Origin: Streptomyces sp. AW19M42
GTDB lineage: Bacteria; Actinomycetota; Actinomycetes; Streptomycetales; Streptomycetaceae
DNA length: 47,147 nt
Direction: 5' to 3'
NCBI GenBank assembly: GCA_000470535.1
Contig: CBRG010000074.1
Location: 1 to 47,147 of the forward strand
How positions within the stretch are numbered: the first letter of the stretch is position 1; the number at the start of each line of letters is the position of its first letter. Made by a program: the position numbers and the translations under genes. Below the pieces are notes generated by a model. It was not told the DNA's origin and did no database searches. It worked only from the letters and a program-made list of their open reading frames with translations. Positions 14,755 through 30,715 of the stretch are shown piece after piece.

Positions 14755-15525
<771 letters not shown>

Positions 15526-15624
15526 GGCTGCCTCCTCGGACCTGCCGGGCACGGCTCGCCTGTGCCGTGCCCCTTGTGCACGATAGGCGGAGCAGGCCAC
15601 AGTTCAAACATCGATCAAGTCGGG

Positions 15625-19029: not shown

Positions 19030-21417
19030 TCAGTACCGAGCGGAGACCTTCACTCCGCCGAAGCCCTGCACGGCGTACAGGCTGATGTAGTGAGCACCCT
19101 CCGCGGGATGGTCGACGGTCAGGGTGTGGCCGTTCCCGCTGCCGGTCGCCCGGGAGGTGTAGGCGCCCGTGGTGGCCCAGCCGCCGGCGTTGTAGTAGAG
19201 GTCGGCGTCCCCCGTACCACCGCTCGTGGTGATCGTCAGCCGGGCGGTGCCGGCGGGCACGTAGAGGTAGAGGTAGGAGTAGTTGCCCTTGGTGGCATGC
19301 TGCCCGCTGCGGGCGCAGTTCTGGCCGAGCTCACGACTGTCGGTGGCGGCGCACTCGGCGCCCGGCTCCGTGGGCGGGTTGGTGGTGGTGCCGCAGCTGC
19401 CGGCCGCGCAGGACGTCAGCCAGCTGTTCCAGTCGGCGTCGTAGCCGCTGCCGATGGTGGAGGTGAGCAGGGTGCGGGCGCCGTTCCAGTCGCCTGCGCG
19501 GTAGAGGCCCAGCAGCTTGTCCACGTCGGCGCGGTGCGACTGGAGCATGTAGCGGACGGCGAGATAGCCCCAGTTGTAGACGCGGGTCTGGTCGGCGTTC
19601 TCGTACGTCGTGTCGAACAGGGTGCGCAGGGTGTAGGTGTGCGCCGCGGCCTGGGTGATGGCGTCGTCGTAGGTGACGTCGCGGTAGGAGTAGGAGACGT
19701 ACTCCGCGAAGCCCTCGACCCACCAGATGGTCGGCGTCGTGATGCCGGCGTCGAAGTCACCGGCCATGTCGAACCGGCCGTCGAGGTAGTGCGTGTACTC
19801 GTGGTTGAGGTTCCAGATCTGGAACTCGGGCCGGACCCACTCGGCCTCGTAGGCGATGAACCGCGGTTGGTTGCCGGCCGCGGCCGGGTCGCCTTCGAGG
19901 TACATTCCGCCGTTGTCGGTGTCGATGCCGTAGATGGCCCCGGCGTACGTCTGGTAGTCGGCGCTCGAATCGAAGACCACCACCTCGATCGTGCTGTTCC
20001 GGTCGTTGGCGACGGGTCCGTTGTCACGCACCACGTCGTGGAAGTAGGCGTCCTGGTTGCGCAGGCTGGTGCAGGCGGTCGCGAGATCGTCCGAGGACAT
20101 CTGCTGGGCCAGGACGCGAATGCTGTCGCTGCACGTGTGGTCGACCGGGAGGACGGCGCTCTTGAGGCGTGCCGACAGGTCGCAGGTGCCGTAGACGGAG
20201 CAGTTGGCCGCGTCGTAGTAGTCGGTCATCTCCGCCAGCCCGACCCAGAGCGGCGCGGTGGTGCCGGTCATCGAGGTGCGGCCGAGCAGGTCGGTGACCA
20301 GCGGGCGGGCCTTGGGTCGCAGCGGCTCCTCCTGGAGGAAACGCGCCAGCTCGCGACCGGCGTTGGAGGCCAGGTAGGACCTGTCCGTGCCGAGCAGGTC
20401 CAGATGGTCACGGGCGAAGCCGGCGAGCGAGTCGAGCAGGCTCGGGTCGGCCTCCACGGCGCTGACGAACTCGGGCACCTGATGGCCGCGGAAGGTCACG
20501 GTGTAGACGTTGTTGACCGCGTTGAGCATGTACCAGGAGCTGTCGTAAGAGGAGTTGTAGTCGGCGAGCAGCCGCTTGACGACGAACAGGTAGCGGGCGT
20601 TCTGCTCCGCGCTGTCGATGAGGGTGACGGCCTCCGCCAGGGTCTCGCCGTTGGCGTCCGTGACATCGCGGGAGTGCGCGGAGGCGAAGAAGCCGTCCAG
20701 GGCGCCCTGGATGGCGGTGCGCAGTGGGGCGCCGTAGCTGCCGACGGTGCCCGGGTCGTAGTACTGCACGTAGTAGCCGGCCCGCAGGAAGAGGACCAGC
20801 TGCGGCATGCCCGTGCTGCTGTCCCCGGGGTAGGCGGCCGATCCATCGCGCAGCGCGTCGGCGACGCTGACCATCTGGGCCTCGCGGAAGGCGAGGTAGC
20901 CGTCGTTGCCCTTGACGTTGAAGAGGGTGTTGACGCAGTCGGTCGTCGATGACTTGACCTGTTGCACCAGGGCGCTGCCGGTGCGGCTGGTGAAGTCCGC
21001 GACGGAGCAGGCGGCGGCCGCGCCGGTGCCGGCCGACCTGGCTGCGGCTCGGGCTCTCGCCTTCATCGAGGGGGCGGGGTGGCTCGGGGCGGAGGTGCCG
21101 GGGTCGTCGTAGTCGCGCCGGAGCGCGTCCTTGGACGCGGTCGTGGGCGGTCTGTCGGCGGGCTTGAGCGCCTTGTCGGCTATGTGTCCGGCGTCCTGGA
21201 CGGGCGCGGTGAGGGCCTGTGCGGCGGGGCCGCCGGGCTCCGGCGCGGCCCGGTCTGCGGCTGTGCGCGCGGCGGACGTTGCGCTCGCCGCGGCGGGAGT
21301 GGACGGGTGGGCCTCGGCGGCCCGGCTCGGTGCCGCGAGCATGCCGACGCCCAGGCAGGCCGCCAGGGCCACGGTGGACAGGCCGGTGAATCTCTGACGA
21401 ACCGTTCGGTTCTTCAC
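19030..21417 (-). CDS. Secreted M9 family collagenase with C-terminal PPC domain
   Basis: A 795-residue secreted zinc metalloprotease. A signal peptide (LSTVALAACLGVGMLAAPSR) is followed by a long helical M9 N-terminal domain. The peptidase domain has zinc motif HEYTH at residues 539-543 (WNLNHEYTHYLDGRF) and the third ligand Glu568 in WWVEGFAEYVS, at the spacing seen in clostridial collagenases. The C-terminal ~100 residues are a pre-peptidase C-terminal (PPC) domain (YLYLYVPAGTARLTI, GDADLYYNAGGW). GTG 21417 was chosen because GGGAGG lies 6 bases upstream. It degrades collagen or gelatin outside the cell. A GntR-type operator candidate lies 149 bases upstream. Confidence 0.92.
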   Translation of the reverse strand: MKNRTVRQRFTGLSTVALAACLGVGMLAAPSRAAEAHPSTPAAASATSAARTAADRAAPEPGGPAAQALTAPVQDAGHIADKALKPADRPPTTASKDALRRDYDDPGTSAPSHPAPSMKARARAAARSAGTGAAAACSVADFTSRTGSALVQQVKSSTTDCVNTLFNVKGNDGYLAFREAQMVSVADALRDGSAAYPGDSSTGMPQLVLFLRAGYYVQYYDPGTVGSYGAPLRTAIQGALDGFFASAHSRDVTDANGETLAEAVTLIDSAEQNARYLFVVKRLLADYNSSYDSSWYMLNAVNNVYTVTFRGHQVPEFVSAVEADPSLLDSLAGFARDHLDLLGTDRSYLASNAGRELARFLQEEPLRPKARPLVTDLLGRTSMTGTTAPLWVGLAEMTDYYDAANCSVYGTCDLSARLKSAVLPVDHTCSDSIRVLAQQMSSDDLATACTSLRNQDAYFHDVVRDNGPVANDRNSTIEVVVFDSSADYQTYAGAIYGIDTDNGGMYLEGDPAAAGNQPRFIAYEAEWVRPEFQIWNLNHEYTHYLDGRFDMAGDFDAGITTPTIWWVEGFAEYVSYSYRDVTYDDAITQAAAHTYTLRTLFDTTYENADQTRVYNWGYLAVRYMLQSHRADVDKLLGLYRAGDWNGARTLLTSTIGSGYDADWNSWLTSCAAGSCGTTTNPPTEPGAECAATDSRELGQNCARSGQHATKGNYSYLYLYVPAGTARLTITTSGGTGDADLYYNAGGWATTGAYTSRATGSGNGHTLTVDHPAEGAHYISLYAVQGFGGVKVSARY

Positions 21418-21554
21418 GTGCCGCCTCCCAGCGGAGTGGTGGCCGCGCGACGGTGCGCGGCCGTGGGGGATGGTGCGCGGTCGGGGTCGGGGGGAAGGCC
21501 GGACGGGGATGAACGTCTGGCATGAACACGACCTCAATCGCGACCGCCTGTACA

Positions 21555-21571
21555 ATGGCACATGTCACATG
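21555..21571. promoter_or_regulatory. Candidate GntR operator upstream of the collagenase (site A)
   Basis: CATGTCACATG (21561-21571) is a perfect odd palindrome. It directly follows a partial copy, ATGGCAC at 21555-21561. The ATGTCAC core recurs upstream of the GntR regulator and of the hydroxyproline operon. It is centred 149 bases before the collagenase start. Confidence 0.5.
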
Positions 21572-21737
21572 TCCTTAGGAAGCGGTTGGGCGCGAATTGG
21601 CATGTGCGCCAACTTCTGGTCATAGAAAGCGACTTGCTGCGGACTACCGCGTACGGGGCCGGGCATGACGACGCACCCGGACGGGATGCCGCATCCGGGT
21701 CAGGCGCTCGTCAGGGAGCGGTGGAGGTTCGGCGGGG

Positions 21738-22409
21738 TCAGGCCTTCATGCCGTCGGCCCACAGCGACCGGACATGGGACATGTGGGCGAGCATGCAGGC
21801 CTCGGCGCCCGGGGCGTCCCCCGCGACAACCAGGTCCAGCAGTTGCACGTGCTCCTCGGCCGAGGCCGTCAACTGGCCCGACTCGGCCAGCCTGTTGAGC
21901 CCGTACAGTCGGGAGCGCTTGCGCAGTTCACCGACCTCCTCGACCAGCCGGCGGTTCCCGGCCAGCCTGAGCAGGGCGAGGTGGAAGCGGCGGTCCGCCT
22001 CCAGGTAGCCCAGGATGTCGTGCCGGCGCGCGGCCTCGACGATCTCCTTCGCGACGGGGCGCAACGCCTCCAGCTCCAGCGTCAGGCCCATCCGCGCGAT
22101 CCGGCCGACGGTGGGGACCTCGATCATGGCCCGGAGTTCGGTGAAGTCGTCGAGGTCCTGATCGGTCAGTTCGGTGATCCGGAAGCCCTTGTTGCGGACG
22201 GCCTCGACCAGCCCTTCCCGGGCCAGGTCGAGCATCGCCTCGCGGACGGGTGTCGCGGAGACACCGAAATCGGCCGCGAGCGCGGGCGCCGAGTAGATCG
22301 TGCCCGGCCTCAGCTCACCCGCGATCAGCGCCGCCCGCAGTGCGTGCGCCACCTGGTCGCGCAGATGTTCCTGCGCCGAGATCGCGTTGAGCGACGTGAG
22401 GCGAGCCAT
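21738..22409 (-). CDS. GntR family regulator, FCD subfamily; candidate hydroxyproline/collagen regulator
   Basis: A 223-residue regulator. Winged helix: HLRDQVAHALRAALIAGELR, then FGVSATPVREAMLDLAREGL and VRNKGFRITELTDQD. The FCD ligand domain includes the metal-binding pattern (EADRRFHLALLRLAGN and ASAEEHVQLLDLVVAGD). GntR/FCD proteins are common regulators of hydroxyproline and other amino-acid catabolism clusters. It lies between the collagenase and the hydroxyproline genes. An imperfect palindrome lies about 42 bases upstream of its own start, suggesting autoregulation. The ligand (4-hydroxyproline or a pathway intermediate) is inference. Confidence 0.88.
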   Translation of the reverse strand: MARLTSLNAISAQEHLRDQVAHALRAALIAGELRPGTIYSAPALAADFGVSATPVREAMLDLAREGLVEAVRNKGFRITELTDQDLDDFTELRAMIEVPTVGRIARMGLTLELEALRPVAKEIVEAARRHDILGYLEADRRFHLALLRLAGNRRLVEEVGELRKRSRLYGLNRLAESGQLTASAEEHVQLLDLVVAGDAPGAEACMLAHMSHVRSLWADGMKA

Positions 22410-22445
22410 GTCTGTCCTCCAGCACCGTACGGAGCGCCAGAATAC

Positions 22446-22456
22446 AATGTCACGTT
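22446..22456. promoter_or_regulatory. Candidate GntR operator before its own gene (site B)
   Basis: AATGTCACGTT is an 11-base odd palindrome with one mismatch. Together with the next bases it shares ATGTCAC(G/A)TTGCC with the site before the hydroxyproline operon (12 of 13 bases), and TACAATGnCAC with the collagenase site. Confidence 0.5.
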
Positions 22457-22517
22457 GCCATACCGTTGCCCGCGGAGATCGCCGCGGATCGGGCCGGTCG
22501 AGGCATCTCGGACACCC

Positions 22518-22848
22518 CTAGTCGAGCGGGAGATCCTCGAACTGCCACGAGTGGCCGGGCTCGTGGCCGGTGAACAGCCAGCACGCCTGTCGCAGGCGGG
22601 GCTCGACGGCGGGGTCCACCTGTTCGCACGGTGCTGCGCAGACGTAGGTGAAGTCGTCGCCGCTCCAGCGCAGCCATACGTCGAAGGCGTCGCGCCCCAT
22701 GGTGTCCAGGCAGTCGCCGTGGCCACCCGCACCCCTTGCCGAGTTCACAGACGAGCCAGTCGGGAAGTTCCGTACCGCCCGCCCACGGGTGCGCTTGCGC
22801 GGTCCGGAACCAGGGCGGGCGGACGGGTTCGTTGCAATGCGTCACCAT
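22518..22848 (-). pseudogene. Small hypothetical gene, apparently frameshifted
   Basis: From ATG 22848, with GGAGAA 5 bases upstream, a protein-like frame reads MVTHCNEPVRPPWFRTAQ up to WLVCELGKG near 22735, then turns Arg/Gly-rich. The next frame continues in good protein style (GGHGDCLDTMGRDAFDVWLR, YVCAAPC, ending GHSWQFEDLPLD) to the stop at 22518. Joining them needs a one-base change at the run AAGGGG near 22730. Alternative: an intact 76-residue gene from GTG 22748, overlapping the upstream gene by GTGA. The composition of the first part favours the frameshift. The function is unknown; there are no membrane or signal segments. Confidence 0.5.
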
Positions 22849-23272
22849 GAGTTCTCCGGTTGAGATGGACGATTCCGGCCCGGGGGGCGACCGGGTGCGT
22901 GTGGAGCGGCCGGTCTGCTGCGGCACGGAGCGGCCGTCCGGCGAGCGTCACGAGCAGACCGGCGGCGGGATCGAGCACGGTGAGCACGTCGGGCCCTCCG
23001 GCCTCCAGCCGCGCCATCGCCTGCTCCTGCTGGTCCGGATCGCGCGCCCATGCCCGGAGCCCGTCCGGGACGGCGGAGCCCTCGAAGCCGATCGGCCGGA
23101 CGCCCGGTATGCCGGGGGCGCCGGGCCCGTCCGCGAGCCGACGCGCCTGCCGCCATAGCCACCGGAGCGCGAGCCTGCGGTTCGCCACGGTCGCCCTGCC
23201 GAGCGAAACCGCCCGGCGGCCGTCCGTCGCGGTGACCTCCACCAGGTAAGCCGCGCCCGGCCGGGCCCTCAC
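22745..23272 (-). CDS. Hypothetical protein, translationally coupled
   Basis: A 175-residue frame starting at GTG 23272, which overlaps the previous stop as GTGA, a mark of translational coupling. The first ~140 residues look like a real soluble protein (YLVEVTATDGRRAVSLGRAT, LRWLWRQARRLADG, EEQ-like helix QQEQAMARLEAGGPDVL). The last ~35 are Arg/Pro-rich and overlap the next gene by about 100 bases in another frame. So the true end may be near 22842, with a frame change in the six-G run at 22882-22887. The family is not recognised. Confidence 0.5.
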   Translation of the reverse strand: MRARPGAAYLVEVTATDGRRAVSLGRATVANRRLALRWLWRQARRLADGPGAPGIPGVRPIGFEGSAVPDGLRAWARDPDQQEQAMARLEAGGPDVLTVLDPAAGLLVTLAGRPLRAAADRPLHTHPVAPRAGIVHLNRRTHGDALQRTRPPALVPDRASAPVGGRYGTSRLARL

Positions 23273-23526
23273 AGCACCTCACCGCGACTCCGCGCGTTGC
23301 ACCGCGCGTTCTCGGCCCGCAGCCGCTCTATGGCATCCGCGGGGCGCAGGTGCTCGGGCTCGGCCTCCCACTCGACCCCGCCGCAGAGCGGCCGCAGCGA
23401 CCAGTACGGGCCGGCGACTCCACGGAACTCACCCACGCGGCCTTGACGGGCCGTGTCCACCAGGAGCGTGCCGGGAGCGGGAACGTGATGAGGGCGTCCG
23501 CCCGGGGAACCGTCTTCTACGCACAC
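23269..23526 (-). CDS. Small hypothetical protein next to the HTH/DUF397 pair
   Basis: An 85-residue soluble protein, starting at GTG 23526 with GGAGAGG 7 bases upstream. Its middle (VPAPGTLLVDTARQGRVGEF, YWSLRPLCGGVEWEAE) suggests a small beta-rich fold. The end is a charged helix (ADAIERLRAENARCNA). Similar short genes are often found beside Scr1/DUF397-type pairs in Streptomyces, but no function is known. It is first in a three-gene minus-strand set and divergent from the HTH gene. Confidence 0.65.
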   Translation of the reverse strand: MCVEDGSPGGRPHHVPAPGTLLVDTARQGRVGEFRGVAGPYWSLRPLCGGVEWEAEPEHLRPADAIERLRAENARCNARSRGEVL

Positions 23527-23631
23527 GATCGTGCCTCTCCGTAGCCGTTCCACTACCAAGGCGGCTCAGCGTGGCCTACGGTCGGTACCTGATCAACGTG
23601 GCTCAGCGGCCAGCCAAGTTGGGGGTAGAGG

Positions 23632-24468
23632 TTGAATCGCAAGGAGTTGGACCCGGAGAGCAGCCCGCAAGCGGCGTTCGGAGCACGATTACGCAGTTCA
23701 CGCGAGGCACACGGTTGGAAGCAGGACGAACTCTCCGCCCGAACGGGCATTTCCAGCGGGCACATTTCAGGCGTCGAAACTGGTCGCAAGATGCCATCTT
23801 TGCGCTTCGCGAAAGCTGCTGACGTGGCCTTGGGTATTGCGGGCACAGGCGACACGTTCGAACGCCAGTGGCGCGAGATGCAGCACGGCAGCCTGCTGGA
23901 AGGGTTCCCGGAGTACGTCGGACATGAGGGGCGCGCCGCGGAGGTCCGGCTGTTCGAGTCGGGTCTGATCCCAGGTCTGCTCCAGACACCCGAGTACGCA
24001 ACAGCCCTTGAGGCAAGCAACGTCAGGCGAGGGTCCATCACAGCCGAACAGGCGCGAGAACGAGTCGAGTTCCTCATGGAACGCCAAGCCGCCCTGGTAC
24101 GAACGCTGCCGCCTCTGCTGTTCGTGGTGCTCGATGAGAGCTGCATCCGCCGACCAATCGGGGGCCATGAGGTCATGCATCGGCAGTTGGCGCACTTGAT
24201 CGAGTTCGCCGAGGAGCCGAACACATCCCTTCAGGTCGCTCCCTTCGCCATGGGGGAGCGCCGACCCTTCACCCGCTTGGTCAACCTGCTGACGCTGAAG
24301 GACCGTTCCGTCGTCGCGTACGTCGAGTCCGAGATCCACGGGTACCTGGAACGGGAGAGCGCTTCCGTGCTGCCCTTGCTGAGGGCCTACCATCAGCTAC
24401 AGACAGAAGCGCCCTCGCAAGCGGAGTCTGTAGCCATGATCACTCAGGTACGAAAGGGCACCCCGTGA
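23632..24468 (+). CDS. HTH regulator of the XRE / DUF5753 (Scr1-like) type
   Basis: A 278-residue DNA-binding protein. The N-terminal XRE helix-turn-helix (residues about 13-70) reads FGARLRSSREAHGWKQDELS then GISSGHISGVETGRKMPS. The C-terminal ~200 residues are the DUF5753 domain (VRLFESGLIPGLLQTPEYA, MERQAALVRTLPPLLFVVLD). The TTG start at 23632 has a G-rich site upstream. It overlaps the DUF397 gene by GTGA. Such pairs resemble toxin-antitoxin-like regulators in Streptomyces. The GC content is visibly lower than its neighbours (three 60-base rows counted at 62-67% against 73% in a flanking row), which suggests acquisition. Confidence 0.88.
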   Translation: MNRKELDPESSPQAAFGARLRSSREAHGWKQDELSARTGISSGHISGVETGRKMPSLRFAKAADVALGIAGTGDTFERQWREMQHGSLLEGFPEYVGHEGRAAEVRLFESGLIPGLLQTPEYATALEASNVRRGSITAEQARERVEFLMERQAALVRTLPPLLFVVLDESCIRRPIGGHEVMHRQLAHLIEFAEEPNTSLQVAPFAMGERRPFTRLVNLLTLKDRSVVAYVESEIHGYLERESASVLPLLRAYHQLQTEAPSQAESVAMITQVRKGTP

Positions 24469-24677
24469 CCGATTACCCGTCCCTCCAGTGGGTCAAGTCC
24501 TCGTACAGCGGCAACGGCGGTTCCTGCGTCGAGTGGGCGCCGTCGAGCGCATCCGCTACCGGCATGGTCCCCGTCCGTGACTCCAAGAATCTGAGCGGCC
24601 CGGTACTGACCGTCCCCGCCGACGCGTTCGCGTCCTTCGTGGCGGGCGTCAAGGCCGGAGAGTTCGGCACCGTCTGA
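24465..24677 (+). CDS. DUF397 small protein
   Basis: A 70-residue DUF397 protein. The family signature is plain: WVKSSYSGNGGSCVEWAP, then VPVRDSKNLSGPVL and a C-terminal helix ending FVAGVKAGEF. DUF397 proteins are partners of the adjacent XRE/DUF5753 regulators and affect development or antibiotic output in the cases studied. GTG 24465 overlaps the HTH stop (GTGA), so the pair is translationally coupled. Confidence 0.9.
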   Translation: MTDYPSLQWVKSSYSGNGGSCVEWAPSSASATGMVPVRDSKNLSGPVLTVPADAFASFVAGVKAGEFGTV

Positions 24678-24681
24678 ACGC

Positions 24682-24722
24682 CCGCCCCGCTCAGCGCCCG
24701 AGTCGGGTGCCGAGCGGGGCGG
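24682..24722. terminator. Bidirectional hairpin terminator
   Basis: A perfect 11-bp stem (CCGCCCCGCTC at 24682-24692, GAGCGGGGCGG at 24712-24722) has a 19-nt loop that itself holds a CCCGA/TCGGG pair. It lies between the convergent DUF397 gene and the hydroxyproline epimerase gene. Confidence 0.75.
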
Positions 24723-24737
24723 TTGCCGTTCAGCGGT

Positions 24738-25739
24738 TCACAGCAGGAACCCTTCGGGGAACGGGTCGGACGGGTCGAGGAAGTACTGCGCGGTTCCGGT
24801 GATCCAGGCGCGGCCCGTGACGGTGGGGACGACCGCGGGCAGCGTCCCGACGGTGGTCTCCGCGACCAGCCGGCCGGTGAACGTGGTGCCGATGAAGGAC
24901 TCGTTCACGAAGTCCGTCTCCAGCGGGAGTTCGCCCCGCGCGTGGAGCTGGGCCATCCGTGCCGAGGTCCCGGTGCCGCACGGTGACCGGTCGAACCATC
25001 CGGGGTGGATGGCCATCGCGTGCCGGGAGTGGACGGCATCGGAGCCGGGTGCGATCAGCTGGACGTGCTTGAGCCCGTGGATGCCGGGGTCGAGCGGATG
25101 GACCGGGCGGTCCGTCTCGTTGACCGCGTCCATCAGGGCGAGCCCCGCCTCCAGCAGCTCGTCCTTGCGCGAGCGGTCGAACGGGAGCCCGAGGTCGGCC
25201 AGTTGCACCATCGCGTAGAAGTTGCCTCCGTAGGCCAGGTCGTAGGTGACGGTGCCGAGGCCGGGCACCTTGGCTGTGAGACCCAGTCCGGCGGAGAAGG
25301 CGGGGACGTTGGTCAGGGTGACGGAGGTGGCGGCGCCGTCTTCGACGTGGACATCGACGGAGACCAGCCCGGCCGGGGTGTCCAGCCGTACGGTGGTGAC
25401 CGGTTCCGTGACCTCCACCATGCCGGTCTCCACCAGCACGGTGGCCACCCCGATCGTGCCGTGTCCGCACATCGGCAGACAGCCCGAGACCTCCATGAAC
25501 AGGACCCCGAAGTCGGCGTCGGGGCGGGTCGGCGGCTGGAGGACGGCCCCGCTCATGGCGGCGTGGCCGCGCGGCTCGTACATCAGCAGGGTGCGTACCG
25601 CGTCGCGGTGCGCCATGAAGTGGTCGCGTCGTTCGGCCATGGTGGCGCCGGGGACGGTGCCGATCCCGCCGGTGATGACGCGGGTGGGCATGCCCTCGGT
25701 GTGCGAGTCGACGGCGTGGAATACGTGACGCGTGCGCAA
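24738..25739 (-). CDS. Proline racemase family, likely 4-hydroxyproline 2-epimerase
   Basis: A 333-residue enzyme converting trans-4-hydroxy-L-proline to cis-4-hydroxy-D-proline by a two-base mechanism. Both catalytic cysteines are present: Cys91 in LPMCGHGTIG and Cys254 in RSPCGTGTSAR. The trans-3-hydroxyproline dehydratases of this family have Thr at the second position, so an epimerase is favoured; proline racemase itself remains possible. The N-terminal VDSHTEGMPTRVI is typical of hydroxyproline epimerases. Last gene of the minus-strand hydroxyproline set, 84 bases after the DapA-like gene. Confidence 0.9.
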   Translation of the reverse strand: MRTRHVFHAVDSHTEGMPTRVITGGIGTVPGATMAERRDHFMAHRDAVRTLLMYEPRGHAAMSGAVLQPPTRPDADFGVLFMEVSGCLPMCGHGTIGVATVLVETGMVEVTEPVTTVRLDTPAGLVSVDVHVEDGAATSVTLTNVPAFSAGLGLTAKVPGLGTVTYDLAYGGNFYAMVQLADLGLPFDRSRKDELLEAGLALMDAVNETDRPVHPLDPGIHGLKHVQLIAPGSDAVHSRHAMAIHPGWFDRSPCGTGTSARMAQLHARGELPLETDFVNESFIGTTFTGRLVAETTVGTLPAVVPTVTGRAWITGTAQYFLDPSDPFPEGFLL

Positions 25740-25823
25740 GTCTCCCCCTCGGTCGTCGTGCCGGTCCGCCGCGGCACGTGCTGTGCGCCGGGCGGTGTGT
25801 CGGGTGCTGTCTGCCGGGCCCGG

Positions 25824-26732
25824 TCAGTCCAGACCCTCGGCCAGCGCCTTCTCGGTGGCGGCCCGCACGGCGGTCGCGGCCTCCGTGTCGAGGGGAAGCC
25901 GGGGCGGCCGGGTGGGACCGCCGTGCCGCCCGACGATGTCCATCGACGCCTTGATCGCCTGGACGAACTCCGGCTTGGAGTCCCAACGCAGCAGCGGATG
26001 GAGCCGCCGGTAGAGCGGCAGGGCCGTCTCAAGGTCCCCGGAGACGGCGGCGCGGTACAGCGCGACACAGCCGGCGGGCAGCATGTTGGGGCAGCCCGCG
26101 ATCCAGCCGACCGCACCGGCCAGGGCGAGTTCCAGCAGCACGTCGTCGGCCCCCACCAGCAGGTCGAGCCCGGGGGCCTCCTCCGCGATCTCGTAGGCCC
26201 TGCGGACGTCCCCGCTGAACTCCTTGACGGCCACGATGGACCCGTCCGTGTGAAGCTGCGCGAGCAGCCCCGGTGTCAGGTCGACCTTGGTGTCGTACGG
26301 GTTGTTGTACGCGACGACCGGCAGGCCCGCCCCGGCGACCTCGGCGTAGTGCGCGCGGACCGCGGCGCCCTCGCACGGGTAGCCGTTGGGCGGCAGCAGC
26401 AGGACGGAGCCGGCGCCCGCCTCCGCCGCCCGGTCGGCGAGGCGGCGCGACTGGGCGCTGTCGTAGGCGGAGACCCCGGGCATGACCCTGGCCCCATCGC
26501 CGGCGGCCTCGACCGCGACGCGCACCACCTGGTCGCGCTCCTGTTCCGTGAGGGTCTGGTACTCCCCCAGCGACCCGTTCGGCACCACGCCGTCGCAGCC
26601 GGCGTCCACGAGGTCGCGCACGTGGGCCGCGTACGCGTCGAAGTCGATGGACCGGTCTTCGCGCAGGGTGAGCGGTGTGGCGACCATGACGCCTCGCCAA
26701 GGACTGTTGCGGGCAGTGGAGTTCGTCGACAT
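25824..26732 (-). CDS. DapA-like lyase, likely 1-pyrroline-4-hydroxy-2-carboxylate deaminase
   Basis: A 302-residue TIM-barrel enzyme of the dihydrodipicolinate synthase/N-acetylneuraminate lyase family. The Schiff-base Lys170 is in SIVAVKEFSGD; the Tyr before it is in VVAYNNPYDT. The GSLGEYQTLTEQER loop replaces the usual GTTGE. With the epimerase and D-hydroxyproline dehydrogenase it fits the deaminase that turns pyrroline-4-hydroxy-2-carboxylate into 2-oxoglutarate semialdehyde. ATG 26732 is chosen because AGGGAG lies 5 bases upstream. The oxoglutarate semialdehyde dehydrogenase that would follow in the pathway is not in this window. Confidence 0.87.
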   Translation of the reverse strand: MSTNSTARNSPWRGVMVATPLTLREDRSIDFDAYAAHVRDLVDAGCDGVVPNGSLGEYQTLTEQERDQVVRVAVEAAGDGARVMPGVSAYDSAQSRRLADRAAEAGAGSVLLLPPNGYPCEGAAVRAHYAEVAGAGLPVVAYNNPYDTKVDLTPGLLAQLHTDGSIVAVKEFSGDVRRAYEIAEEAPGLDLLVGADDVLLELALAGAVGWIAGCPNMLPAGCVALYRAAVSGDLETALPLYRRLHPLLRWDSKPEFVQAIKASMDIVGRHGGPTRPPRLPLDTEAATAVRAATEKALAEGLD

Positions 26733-26831
26733 CTGGGCTCCCTCAGAGGTGTGGCATGACATGGACCGGCGAAGGGGACGGAGAAGGCCGCACTCCCGGA
26801 GGGGCCCGGGAGACGTGCGCGCCCCGGGCGT

Positions 26832-28292
26832 TCACCCGTCCTCGGGGCGGGCCGCACGGGCGAGCGTGGCGAGCGGGACCGGGCAGGCCAGCGGCCGGCG
26901 GTCCGGGGCTCCGGCCTCCGCGGCGCAGCCCGCCAGTTCCCGGACCGGGAACCCGCACGTCCGGCCCTGGCACCAGCCCATCCCGGCCCGGGTGAGGAGT
27001 TTGACCGTCCGGCTGTCGCCGGCGCCGAGGTCGTCGACCGCCGTGCGGATCGCGCCCGCGGTGACCTCCTCGCAGCGGCAGACCTCCGTGTCGGCGGCGA
27101 GCCACCCGGTCCAGCCGGGGCCGGGCCGGTGCACGGCGCCCATCAGCCCGGCGAACGCGCGCATCCGCCGCCGGGCCCGGCGCAGCACCGTCATCCGGCG
27201 CGCGTCCCGGCCCCGGGTACCGCCCCGGGCATCCTCCGTCACCGCGAGGGCCGCCAACTCCCCCTCGGCCAGCGCGAGGTGCACGCCGCCGATGCCGCCC
27301 GGCTCGCCCGCGGCCCAGACGCCGGGCACGGTGGTGCGCAGGCTCTCGTCGAGCACCAGGGCGGCCGACCCGTCCGCGCCGCACCGGGTCCCGCAGCCCA
27401 GGCCGACGGCCAGGTCGAGCTGCGGGACCAGCCCGTGGCCCACGGCCAGGGTGTCGCAGTCGATCCGGCGGCCGGTTCCGGGGAGCGGGCGCCAGTCGCG
27501 GTCCAGGCGGCTGACGGTGACTCCCTCCACCCGCTCTGTTCCGTGCACGGCGGTGACCGCGCGATGGGTCAGTACCCGTACCCGGTGGCCCGCCAGCGCC
27601 GCCGAGTGCCGTATCCCCTCCCGGAGCCGGCCGGGGTCTGCGGCCAGCACGCGGGGAGCGCGTCCGTACGCCCCGTATCCGGCGGCCTCCACCAGTGCGG
27701 GCACCCTGGCGCCGGCCGCCGCCAGGGACACCGCGACGGCCTGCAGCAGCGGTCCGCTGCCCGCGACGACGACGCGCTGTCCCGGCAGCACCAGACCCGA
27801 CTTGAGCATGGCCTGCGCCCCGGCCGCGCCGACGACTCCGGGCAGGGTCCAGCCGGGGAAGGGCAGCTGGCGCTCGTGGGAGCCGGTCGCGATGAGCAGC
27901 CGGCGGGCCCGGAGCGTGGCCGCCCCCTCGCCGTCGGGGCCGGTGACGGCGTGCAGGGTCCAGTCCGCCCCGGTCCGCTCGACGGCCCACACCTGATGCC
28001 CGGCGAGGTGACGGATCCGGCCCGCGTCGCGGTGCCGTGCGAGCCGTGCCGTCAGTCCGGCGAACCGCGCCCAGCCGTGGTGCAGCGCCTCGGGCCGGGT
28101 GGCGCGCAGACCGGGGGCCGGGGAGCGGTAGTACTGGCCGCCGGGCTCGTCGGCCGCGTCGAGCAGGACCACGTCGAGTCCGCCGTCGGCGGCGGTGACC
28201 GCGGCCGCCAGTCCGGCCGGACCGGCGCCCACCACGGCGAGTCCGGTGAAGTGCGGCGCGGGGTGCGGAGGTTCAGCGGCGGAGTCCGGCAT
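26832..28292 (-). CDS. FAD/NAD(P)-binding subunit of a D-hydroxyproline dehydrogenase-type complex
   Basis: A 486-residue flavoprotein. The first dinucleotide site is LAVVGAGPAGLAAAVTAADG followed by DEPGGQYYRS. A second is VVVAGSGPLLQAVAVSLAAA. The C-terminal BFD-like [2Fe-2S] region has cysteines in VCRCEEVT and WCQGRTCG. It matches the HcnB / LhpE-type subunit of heterotrimeric dehydrogenases, including the cis-4-hydroxy-D-proline dehydrogenase LhpBEF of Pseudomonas aeruginosa. ATG 28292 has AGGAGGGGG before it, and the gene overlaps the upstream ferredoxin-like gene by 20 bases. Confidence 0.87.
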   Translation of the reverse strand: MPDSAAEPPHPAPHFTGLAVVGAGPAGLAAAVTAADGGLDVVLLDAADEPGGQYYRSPAPGLRATRPEALHHGWARFAGLTARLARHRDAGRIRHLAGHQVWAVERTGADWTLHAVTGPDGEGAATLRARRLLIATGSHERQLPFPGWTLPGVVGAAGAQAMLKSGLVLPGQRVVVAGSGPLLQAVAVSLAAAGARVPALVEAAGYGAYGRAPRVLAADPGRLREGIRHSAALAGHRVRVLTHRAVTAVHGTERVEGVTVSRLDRDWRPLPGTGRRIDCDTLAVGHGLVPQLDLAVGLGCGTRCGADGSAALVLDESLRTTVPGVWAAGEPGGIGGVHLALAEGELAALAVTEDARGGTRGRDARRMTVLRRARRRMRAFAGLMGAVHRPGPGWTGWLAADTEVCRCEEVTAGAIRTAVDDLGAGDSRTVKLLTRAGMGWCQGRTCGFPVRELAGCAAEAGAPDRRPLACPVPLATLARAARPEDG

Positions 28293-28611
28293 GGCCGTCC
28301 CCCTCCTGGGTCGTGACCACATCGCCGGGGCGGGCGGGCCGCAGACAGGCCCGCCGGCCGGGGACCCCGTTCACGGTGACCAGGCAGTCGAAGCAGGAGC
28401 CGATCCCGCAGAAGGCCCCTCGCGGGCGACCGTTCACCCTGGTGGTGCGCCAGGTGAGGACGGAGTCCGCCCAGAGGACGGCGGCGATGCTCCGGCCGGG
28501 CAGGGCGTGGACCGGGCGGCCGTCGAAAGTGATCTCGAACCCCGGCCCCGGCTCGGCACCGGCCAGGGTGGCCGGGGTGCGGGCGGCGGTGCGTCTGCGG
28601 ATACGTATCAC
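28273..28611 (-). CDS. [2Fe-2S] ferredoxin-like subunit (HcnA/LhpF-type)
   Basis: A 112-residue small subunit with a ferredoxin-like [2Fe-2S] site: Cys in AFCGIGSCFDCLVTVNG plus a later Cys (GRRACLRPA). This matches the small subunit of HcnABC/LhpBEF-type dehydrogenases, which carries electrons between the two flavin subunits. The GTG at 28611 overlaps the stop of the oxidoreductase gene as GTGA, so translation is coupled. Confidence 0.87.
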   Translation of the reverse strand: MIRIRRRTAARTPATLAGAEPGPGFEITFDGRPVHALPGRSIAAVLWADSVLTWRTTRVNGRPRGAFCGIGSCFDCLVTVNGVPGRRACLRPARPGDVVTTQEGDGHAGLRR

Positions 28612-29807
28612 CAGGGCTCCTGTCTCGGTGGCCGGGCGGCCGGGCGGCCCTCGGAGGCGGTCTCGAACCGGTCGGGCCGGAACGGTTCGGGGTCGATGGC
28701 GGGTTCCTCGCCGCGGATCGCGGCGACGACCAGTGCGGCCGTGGCGGGGGCGAGCCCGATCCCGGCGCCCTCGTGACCGCAGGCGTGGAAGAGGCCCGGC
28801 ACCCGGCGGTCGGGGCCGATCGCCGGCAGGTGGTCCGGCAGATAGGGGCGGAAGCCGTGGTAGGCGCGCAGCACGCGGGCCTGTCCGAGTACGGGGAAGA
28901 GCGCGGCGGCCGCGGCTGCCAGCCTGCTGATCACCGGCACGGACAACGTACGGTCGAAGCCGACCCGTTCACGGCTCGCGCCGATCAGTACCGGCCCCGC
29001 CGGAGTCCCCTCCACGACGGGCGAGGTCTGCAGCGCGGCCGAACCGCTGGACACATCGGCCACGTACTCCGCCGCGTACACCTTGTGCCTGATCAGCCGG
29101 GGCAGCGGCTCGGTCACCAGGACGAAGCCGCGCCTGGGCAGCACGGGCAGTTCCACCCCCGCCAGCGCGGCCAGTTCGCCGCCCCGGACGCCCGTGGCGT
29201 TGACCACCGCCGGGGCCAGCAGATCGCCCCGGCCGGTCCGTACGCCGCGTACCGCGCCGGTCGGCCCGGTGAGCACGGCCGTGACCGCCTCCCCCAGCCG
29301 GACACGGGCCCCGGCCTCACGCGCCGTGCGCAGCACGTGTGCTGCCGCCAGGGCTGGTTGGACCTGGGCGTCCTGAGGGTAGAGGACCCCGCCCGCGAGA
29401 CCGGGTGCGAGGTGCGGTTCCAGTCCGGGCAGCTCGTGCGGAGCGACGGCGCGGGTCCGTACCCCCGCCTCCGCCTGCCCGGCCGCTGTCGCGGTCAGCG
29501 TGGCCAGCGACGCTTCGTCCGCCGCCACCACCAGGCCGCCCTTCTGCTCGAACTCGACTGCGCTCGGCAGTATTTGGGCGAGTTCGCGCCAGAGGGAGGC
29601 GGAGTGCAGTGCGAGGGTCAGCTCAGGGCCCGGCGGCTTGTCGGAGACCAAGAGGTTCCCCTCCCCCGCCCCCGTGGTGCCACCGGCGACGGGCCCGCTG
29701 TCCACCACCGCGACCGCGAGTCCGGACCGGGCCGCGTAGTAGGCGCAGGCGGCGCCGACCACTCCGGCACCGACAACGACGACATCCAAAGGCTGTCTCG
29801 TGAACAC
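28608..29807 (-). CDS. D-amino-acid-oxidase-like FAD subunit, likely D-hydroxyproline dehydrogenase catalytic subunit
   Basis: A 399-residue flavoenzyme of the DadA/DAO family. The N-terminal FAD site is VVVVGAGVVGAACAYYAARS, the second flavin contact is VVNATGVRGGELAALAG, and the C-terminal CGHEGAGIGLAPATA closes the fold. It corresponds to HcnC/LhpB and would oxidise cis-4-hydroxy-D-proline to the pyrroline. GTG 29807 has no clear ribosome binding site and follows the candidate operator by about 8 bases, so a leaderless or very short 5' end is possible. First gene of the catabolic operon. Confidence 0.88.
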   Translation of the reverse strand: MFTRQPLDVVVVGAGVVGAACAYYAARSGLAVAVVDSGPVAGGTTGAGEGNLLVSDKPPGPELTLALHSASLWRELAQILPSAVEFEQKGGLVVAADEASLATLTATAAGQAEAGVRTRAVAPHELPGLEPHLAPGLAGGVLYPQDAQVQPALAAAHVLRTAREAGARVRLGEAVTAVLTGPTGAVRGVRTGRGDLLAPAVVNATGVRGGELAALAGVELPVLPRRGFVLVTEPLPRLIRHKVYAAEYVADVSSGSAALQTSPVVEGTPAGPVLIGASRERVGFDRTLSVPVISRLAAAAAALFPVLGQARVLRAYHGFRPYLPDHLPAIGPDRRVPGLFHACGHEGAGIGLAPATAALVVAAIRGEEPAIDPEPFRPDRFETASEGRPAARPPRQEPW

Positions 29808-30109
29808 GTCAGTAATATGTCACATTGCCCAGAGGGCGCCAAGAGGTCGTCAGCGCATGAGAATTGATGGGCCGTCATTTCATGTCCGCGCTGCGTCACC
29901 TCGACGGAACGGGCGGGCGGGCGGATCCACACGGGACAGGCGCGGGTCAACGCGATGCCTGCGCATAGAAGTATGGAGCGTGTGAAAGCTGCCGGAATCC
30001 GGCAGTGCTTCCAGCCACCGTCACGGGCGATGATGCACGTGCCCGGCGGCTGCGCACACGCTCGCCGACGCTCCGATCATCACTGCGTTCCGAAGGCAGG
30101 TCCACCCGT
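29808..30109. other. Divergent intergenic region: hydroxyproline operon / ALF-repeat gene
   Basis: About 300 bases without a gene. It holds the candidate GntR operator (29816-29826) next to the operon start, a small hairpin CTGCCGG-AAT-CCGGCAG at 29989-30005 upstream of the ALF-repeat gene, and otherwise no signal I recognise. Confidence 0.6.
29816..29826. promoter_or_regulatory. Candidate GntR operator at the hydroxyproline operon (site C)
   Basis: TATGTCACATT is an odd palindrome (ATGT-C-ACAT core perfect). It is centred 14 bases upstream of the first catabolic gene, where a bound repressor would block transcription. It shares ATGTCAC(A/G)TTGCC with site B. Confidence 0.55.
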
Positions 30110-30715
30110 ATGAGACTGACCCGTGCCGCTCTTGCCGTAGCGGCCACCGCCCTGGCGCCGGCCCTCCTGCTGACCACTCCGGCCTTCGCCGCCGGTGCCG
30201 CCTCGGCGCCCGCCACCGTGGCGGCGCCGGCGGCCGCGGACGACCCCGGCACACCCGTGGACGACATGTCCGAGGAGGACCTCCGTATCGCGATCCTCCG
30301 CATCATGGCGGACGAGGACAGCGGCAGGGGGGTCACCCAGGAGGCGAACAAGGCCCTCGACGGCACGGTGGAGGACATGCGCGCCTTCCTGAAGACCGGC
30401 TACCGCCTCGCCCAGGCGGAGGACGACAGTGTCACCGTCGTCAGCCTCCTCGCCAACCCCGACAGCGGAAAGCGCGTCATCAAGGAGGTCAACGAACTCC
30501 TCGACAACAACGCCACCCCGGAACAGCTCCGCGCCTTCCTCGAAACCGGCTACCGCCTCGCCCAGGCAGAGGACGACAGGGTCGCCGTCGTCCGCATACT
30601 CGCCGACCCGGACAGCAGCAGCGCGCTCCGGGCGGCGGCCGAGGCCGTCATCGACGGCACTCCGGAGGAGCTGCGCTACTTCCTGGAGTACGGCCAGTAC
30701 GAGGTGGACGCGTAG
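30110..30715 (+). CDS. Secreted ALF-repeat protein
   Basis: A 201-residue secreted protein. A signal peptide (LTRAALAVAATALAPALLLT) ends near TPAFA. The mature part has ALF-type repeats, each a helix pair, visible as MRAFLKTGYRLAQAEDDSVT, LRAFLETGYRLAQAEDDRVA and LRYFLEYGQYEV, joined by ILADPDSS-like links. ALF repeats are common in Streptomyces exported proteins; no function is established. ATG 30110 follows AAGGCAGG. Its terminator carries an inserted element. Confidence 0.82.
   Translation: MRLTRAALAVAATALAPALLLTTPAFAAGAASAPATVAAPAAADDPGTPVDDMSEEDLRIAILRIMADEDSGRGVTQEANKALDGTVEDMRAFLKTGYRLAQAEDDSVTVVSLLANPDSGKRVIKEVNELLDNNATPEQLRAFLETGYRLAQAEDDRVAVVRILADPDSSSALRAAAEAVIDGTPEELRYFLEYGQYEVDA

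Follow-up and report, generated by a model that had tools for sequence, protein, structure and literature searches.

Does a single regulator in Streptomyces join the extracellular digestion of collagen to the intracellular use of hydroxyproline? The question is raised by a 47,147-nucleotide stretch of Streptomyces sp. AW19M42 (contig CBRG010000074.1; hereafter the window), which carries on its minus strand a secreted M9 collagenase gene (19030-21417; Pfam M9_N, M9 with HEYTH, and PPC, with a signal peptide recognized by eye), a gene for a GntR/FadR-type repressor with an FCD domain (21738-22409) and a five-gene operon predicted to break down hydroxyproline. The first gene of the operon encodes the predicted beta subunit of D-hydroxyproline dehydrogenase (28608-29807; DAO), followed by the predicted gamma (28273-28611; Fer2_4) and alpha (26832-28292) subunits, a deaminase assigned to the DHDPS family by Pfam (25824-26762), and a predicted 4-hydroxyproline 2-epimerase of the proline-racemase family (24738-25739) in which both cysteine motifs, MCGHG and PCGTG, are present. 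An initial annotation had proposed these families and coordinates, and Pfam domains and open reading frame (ORF) positions bear them out. We consider it highly probable that the collagenase gene, the GntR/FCD gene and the operon, each with an upstream operator of the HypR type, are repressed by HypR, with derepression brought about by a metabolite formed as hydroxyproline is broken down. This reading is based on the gene families, the residues of the regulator, an exact 11-base operator, the conserved positions of the sites, reversed-sequence controls and experiments in Streptomyces coelicolor.

HypR (SCO6294) of S. coelicolor is a GntR/FCD protein reported to repress itself, the hydroxyproline operon SCO6289-6293, the M9 collagenase gene SCO5912, and SCO5281 (Kotowska et al. 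2019, PMC6608401), on evidence from electrophoretic mobility shift assays (EMSA), footprinting, reporters and knock-outs. According to that report, HypR left a DNase footprint at TACAATGTCAC in its own promoter, covering the -10 element, and bound seven fragments in EMSA. The regulon was induced by L-hydroxyproline (L-Hyp) and growth on L-Hyp was lost without SCO6293; L- and D-Hyp were without effect on HypR-DNA binding in vitro (PMC6608401). The statement in the initial annotation that such a circuit had not been described in Streptomyces is therefore wrong, and its idea of one regulator linking collagen digestion to hydroxyproline use is supported by conservation in relatives and by the S. 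coelicolor experiments, minus the novelty. The core circuit is already described; what is new is the linkage of collagenase to hypR, the conservation of the operators at fixed positions and a wider likely regulon.

The regulator of the window is very probably the HypR ortholog, as suggested by three lines of sequence evidence. The 14 residues of SCO6294 named in PMC6608401 for DNA contact and zinc binding were compared, and 13 agree, all shifted by a single position, with Met in place of Leu209; the exact footprinted 11-mer is present in its promoter; and the gene order beta-gamma-alpha-deaminase-epimerase and then hypR, on one strand, agrees with that of SCO6289-6294. When proteins were searched for relatives of the regulator, 4811 reached E 1e-40 or better; the 120 of these that were listed bear generic GntR names only, and SCO6294 was not singled out among them.

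Three odd palindromes, at 21561-21571, 22446-22456 and 29816-29826, were present as initially annotated, and the last two agree at 12 of 13 bases. Exact ATGTSACRTTGCC occurs at only two places in the whole 8.0-Mb assembly (670 contigs), both within the window, and is thus not common, as the proposed circuit presupposed. The 9-base core ATGTSACAT was found at eight places genome-wide, two of them in the window, and the reversed pattern at one. At the hypR promoter, TACAATGTCAC (22443-22453) repeats without mismatch the hypR operator footprinted with DNase in S. coelicolor, and a -10 element TATTCT predicted from the sequence (22439-22444, minus strand) lies 2 bp off the operator core at 22447-22455. 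The operon carries the ATGTCACAT operator (29817-29825) at -18 of the beta gene, for which a leaderless start at GTG is predicted; the operon also has GGCAATGTGAC, which matches a bound site at 10/11 positions, and a predicted -10 element CATATT (29814-29819, minus strand) is found 17 bp from a predicted -35 element TTGGCG (29837-29842), both read from the sequence. Upstream of the collagenase, the sequence closest to the published HypR site is TACAATGGCAC (21551-21561), which agrees with the DNase-footprinted sequence at 10/11 positions and abuts the initially annotated palindrome, where a ATGTCACAT core (21562-21570) lies inside a 22-mer spanning 21550-21571.

Conservation was assessed at 80 further loci with a related regulator, the best 80 of 505 stretches encoding a relative; addition of the window brought the set to 81. 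The scan for ATGTSACAT covered those promoters for which the gene, its start and its upstream region were available, the window being included each time. Here the initial supposition that the motif is kept in related promoters held: at no more than one mismatch, the core was present in 75/81 hypR promoters (1 exact), in all 44 beta-gene promoters (35 exact) and in 15 of the 16 linked window-type collagenases, defined by at least 50% identity (13 exact). The usual hypR site across relatives is the variant ACGTGACAT. A tree of the 81 regulators places in one group all but one of the 16 that have a window-type collagenase linked to them, the exception being that of locus L071; the window regulator pairs with that of L003.

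A second count covered whole loci, using ATGTSACAT and the variants ATGTGAAAT and ACGTSACAT, with upstream taken as up to 650 bp (250 bp for alpha, deaminase and epimerase). In all, 237 operator-like places were counted in the window and the 80 other loci, of which 222 lay upstream of a regulon gene and 15 did not. Among genes with enough upstream sequence, the motif preceded the regulator in 75/81, beta in 50/51, window-type collagenase in 14/16, a second collagenase type (collagenase 2) in 22/23, aminopeptidase in 20/20 and 13/15 (two reference sequences), an importer in 33/33 and an S9/DPPIV_N peptidase in 11/11. None was found upstream of alpha (0/54), an ornithine-cyclodeaminase-like gene (0/38), an aldehyde dehydrogenase gene (0/22) or a second racemase gene (0/29), and the internal epimerase and deaminase genes had some (4/64 and 6/61). 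Both variants and these four negative classes were chosen after seeing the data. The reversed-sequence control gave 0 for each motif, against 72, 81 and 84 for the three motifs.

These counts bear on the possibility that the motifs arose by chance. Within the window, the 13-mer at up to three mismatches is indeed not enriched (14 found against 14.58 expected), as would be expected by chance. Against chance, dozens of promoters keep the motif at fixed positions, and 8 Mb contain only two exact 13-mer matches; a chance origin was rejected on genome counts, promoter conservation and the reversed-sequence controls; we regard it as having a negligible probability.

The collagenase site calls for separate consideration, as the operon and hypR could be HypR targets while this site is a leftover of a divergent Xaa-Pro aminopeptidase promoter and the collagenase is controlled otherwise. 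In L003, the tree sister of the window, and in L010, this site does lie between the collagenase gene and a divergently oriented M24/AMP_N aminopeptidase gene; the latter is missing between hypR and collagenase in the window, where the 324-bp gap is too small to hold it, and the operator-like site lies far from the collagenase start. Against a leftover, however, the site is exact in 13/16 linked collagenases, including L004-L008, where the gap of 254-501 bp is likewise too short for an aminopeptidase gene. The 22-mer, searched at up to three mismatches, was found in 31/295 Streptomyces genomes (reversed pattern, one match), and it adjoins a window-type collagenase in 26 of the 30 loci retrieved, one of which is the window; two of the other contigs end, one locus has it flanking hydroxyproline genes and an aminopeptidase, and one is without a match. 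In S. coelicolor, moreover, the SCO5912 promoter was active only in the hypR mutant (PMC6608401). We therefore judge a leftover site to be unlikely, and HypR likely controls the collagenase in the window strain.

Another FCD regulator might also read these sites or share them with HypR, the nearest example being a second GntR/FCD gene of the window (14773-15600, minus strand) whose product is about 50% identical to the HypR ortholog. This paralog has 12 of the 14 listed HypR residues, and ten of the 80 relatives (L003, L004, L005, L007 and L009-L014) also carry it on the far side of the collagenase. It nevertheless has proline at the position of Arg71, a predicted DNA-contact residue of HypR, no operator core occurs near it, and one operator sits inside the hypR promoter itself. 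Such a role for the paralog is very improbable, and HypR is kept as the predicted reader of all three sites.

It is hypothesized that HypR would bind the sites of its own gene, the operon and the collagenase, and so repress all three. As the operator core lies at or next to the predicted -10 elements of hypR and the operon, bound HypR would be expected to block RNA polymerase there. Leaky collagenase expression could then release peptides from which hydroxyproline would enter the cell, to be epimerized, oxidized and deaminated toward 2-oxoglutarate, and some intermediate of this pathway may derepress digestion and catabolism together.

Several observations weigh against this model. The published 14-base consensus, CTNTGC(A/C)ATGTCAC, is matched at only 12, 11 and 12 of 14 positions at the collagenase, hypR and operon, respectively, and 6/81 hypR promoters are without the core at one mismatch or fewer. 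In the window, hypR and the operon are set apart by an extra 2.3 kb (22450-24738) that includes an HTH_31/DUF5753 gene, and the comparison of the window regulator with S. coelicolor HypR covered the listed residues only. In addition, HypR of S. coelicolor bound sites at SCO7176/7177 and SCO7273 in EMSA but these were without effect in vivo, and SCO5315 showed no activity (PMC6608401). A site alone is therefore no proof of control, which is a warning for every new target named here.

We think it probable, with less confidence than for the three units of the window, that HypR governs a full collagen-utilization locus across many Streptomyces. This would comprise two distant M9 collagenase types on opposite sides of the operon, an oligopeptide ATP-binding cassette (ABC) importer, an Xaa-Pro aminopeptidase, a prolyl oligopeptidase and hydroxyproline catabolism, with many of these genes controlled through a near-identical 27-bp promoter (TTGTCA-N17-TATGTT) that is followed at 20 bp by a second TCACA; a reduced version would be present in the window strain. 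Collagenase 2 is only 24-29% identical to the window collagenase and was found nearby in 25 of the 80 loci. In 19 of the 25 it precedes the beta gene and shares its strand, and in L064 it is likewise upstream but on the other strand; two loci have it beyond hypR and three are without a matched beta gene. Its promoter, where examined, reads TTGTCAGTGCAATTTCACATTACTATG, with the operator occupying the 17 bases that separate the predicted TTGTCA and TATGTT elements. The same element is also found ahead of the operon for an SBP_bac_5 oligopeptide importer, and genes for M24 Xaa-Pro aminopeptidases are divergent from it.

The 27-mer, at up to three mismatches, was found in 85/295 Streptomyces genomes (reversed pattern, none) and is absent from the window genome. 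One place per genome was followed up in the first 30 listed genomes (L119-L148), and all 30 adjoin collagenase 2, the importer or the aminopeptidase. The second TCACA stands exactly 20 bp downstream of the first in 25 of these 30 promoters, which suggests two repressor sites on one face of the helix. The main text of PMC6608401 does not contain the word aminopeptidase and its target tables list no peptide importer; passages on S. coelicolor HypR in PMC9739823 and PMC13170358 give no further target, the latter paper reporting that actinorhodin prevents HypR-DNA complexes. The titles and abstracts listed in searches of open-licence literature gave no link of HypR to a peptide importer or aminopeptidase.

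The window genome likely carries a reduced form of this regulon, to judge from its gene content. Three clear operators are found in the strain, at hypR, the operon and the collagenase. Its assembly, in 670 contigs, has no close match to the importer or Xaa-Pro aminopeptidase of relatives (best matches 41% and 53% identical, respectively), the prolyl oligopeptidase/S9 peptidase not having been searched there, and its best match to the cluster-linked aldehyde dehydrogenase is 41% identical. A tblastn search of two window gaps for remnants of the aminopeptidase or other regulon genes gave weak hits among the matches listed (best E 0.028). The sole ATGTGAAAT of the window genome (L091, positions 1501-1509, contig C307) is flanked by two importer genes, one of the SBP_bac_5 family and one for a BPD permease, and stands about 126 bp ahead of the latter; in relatives the motif stands ahead of the binding protein instead, and this one was not counted as a site. 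The L091 oligopeptide-importer cluster is a possible fourth HypR target in the strain. The other cores of the genome that were inspected (L085-L090) were left out of the regulon, as they lie at or inside genes whose translated ORFs have, by eye, no visible collagen link.

Regulator and elements tend to occur together among the 295 genomes. A regulator at E below 1e-79, a cut set after seeing the data, is present in 130, of which 101 carry the 22-mer or 27-mer, compared with 3 of the 165 others (Fisher 8e-48, computed without correction for relatedness). The group of weaker matches (109 genomes, 1e-60 to 1e-79) also includes HypR-like proteins: three of four sampled have the same operon with the core before the beta gene, and L193 does not. 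Among the 29 strong regulators without an element, six were sampled; when the pattern is relaxed, five of them show core-like sites at regulon genes, and the sixth, L195, has only ATTTCACAC, at the collagenase. Taken as sequence markers, the two elements denote a subset of HypR lineages, not the presence of HypR as such.

Comparison with known systems places the locus closest to the S. coelicolor A3(2) regulon (PMC6608401), with which it shares a GntR/FadR-FCD repressor, the five-gene order followed by hypR, the operator core and an M9 collagenase target. In S. coelicolor, however, SCO5912 is unlinked by locus number, whereas the window collagenase is linked to hypR, and SCO5281, of the 2-oxoglutarate dehydrogenase type, is a further target. 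The published target list is without peptide importer or aminopeptidase, and SCO6295, divergent from hypR, is annotated there as a multidrug-type ABC transporter. The S. coelicolor consensus is an asymmetric 14-mer, whereas relatives here have the core ATGTSACAT with its ACGTSACAT and ATGTGAAAT variants. A Colwellia collagen cluster similarly combines M9 collagenase, aminopeptidase, dipeptidase and hydroxyproline catabolism and uptake (PMC7883544). It differs in belonging to a gammaproteobacterium and in having PutR and stringent-starvation proteins, a TonB receptor and a major facilitator superfamily transporter; the word GntR is not in the main text of that paper. HypR of Sinorhizobium meliloti and LhpR of Pseudomonas, as cited in PMC6608401, also regulate an epimerase, dehydrogenase and deaminase pathway; the passages concerned name no collagenase target, LhpR is an AraC-type activator, and the S. 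meliloti dehydrogenase is the non-homologous HypO.

These results suggest that collagen serves many soil Streptomyces as a dedicated nutrient, under one switch from extracellular digestion to 2-oxoglutarate, and the collagen system may be seen as the protein counterpart of a polysaccharide utilization locus. They also name peptidases and a peptide importer that are likely co-regulated, and supply an operator with which such genes can be found.

Other genes were seen at these loci. An aldehyde dehydrogenase gene lies inside the hydroxyproline cluster of L016 (4521-5885; Pfam) and L020 (6488-7870; by eye), the genus being Kitasatospora, and possibly encodes 2-oxoglutarate semialdehyde dehydrogenase, a step unlinked in S. 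coelicolor. At L028 (7972-8985) and L036 (8971-9918), a second proline-racemase-family gene and an ornithine-cyclodeaminase-like gene were found between epimerase and hypR; matches to the former occur in 29 loci and to the latter in 38. The former was not named a trans-3-hydroxyproline dehydratase, since it retains both cysteine motifs. The HTH_31/DUF5753 gene between hypR and the epimerase in the window (23632-24468, plus strand) was not counted in the regulon, and the corresponding interval is only about 70-90 bases in relatives L004-L007. Divergent from the operon, the window encodes an ALF-repeat protein (30110-30715, plus strand) with a signal-peptide-like start recognized by eye.
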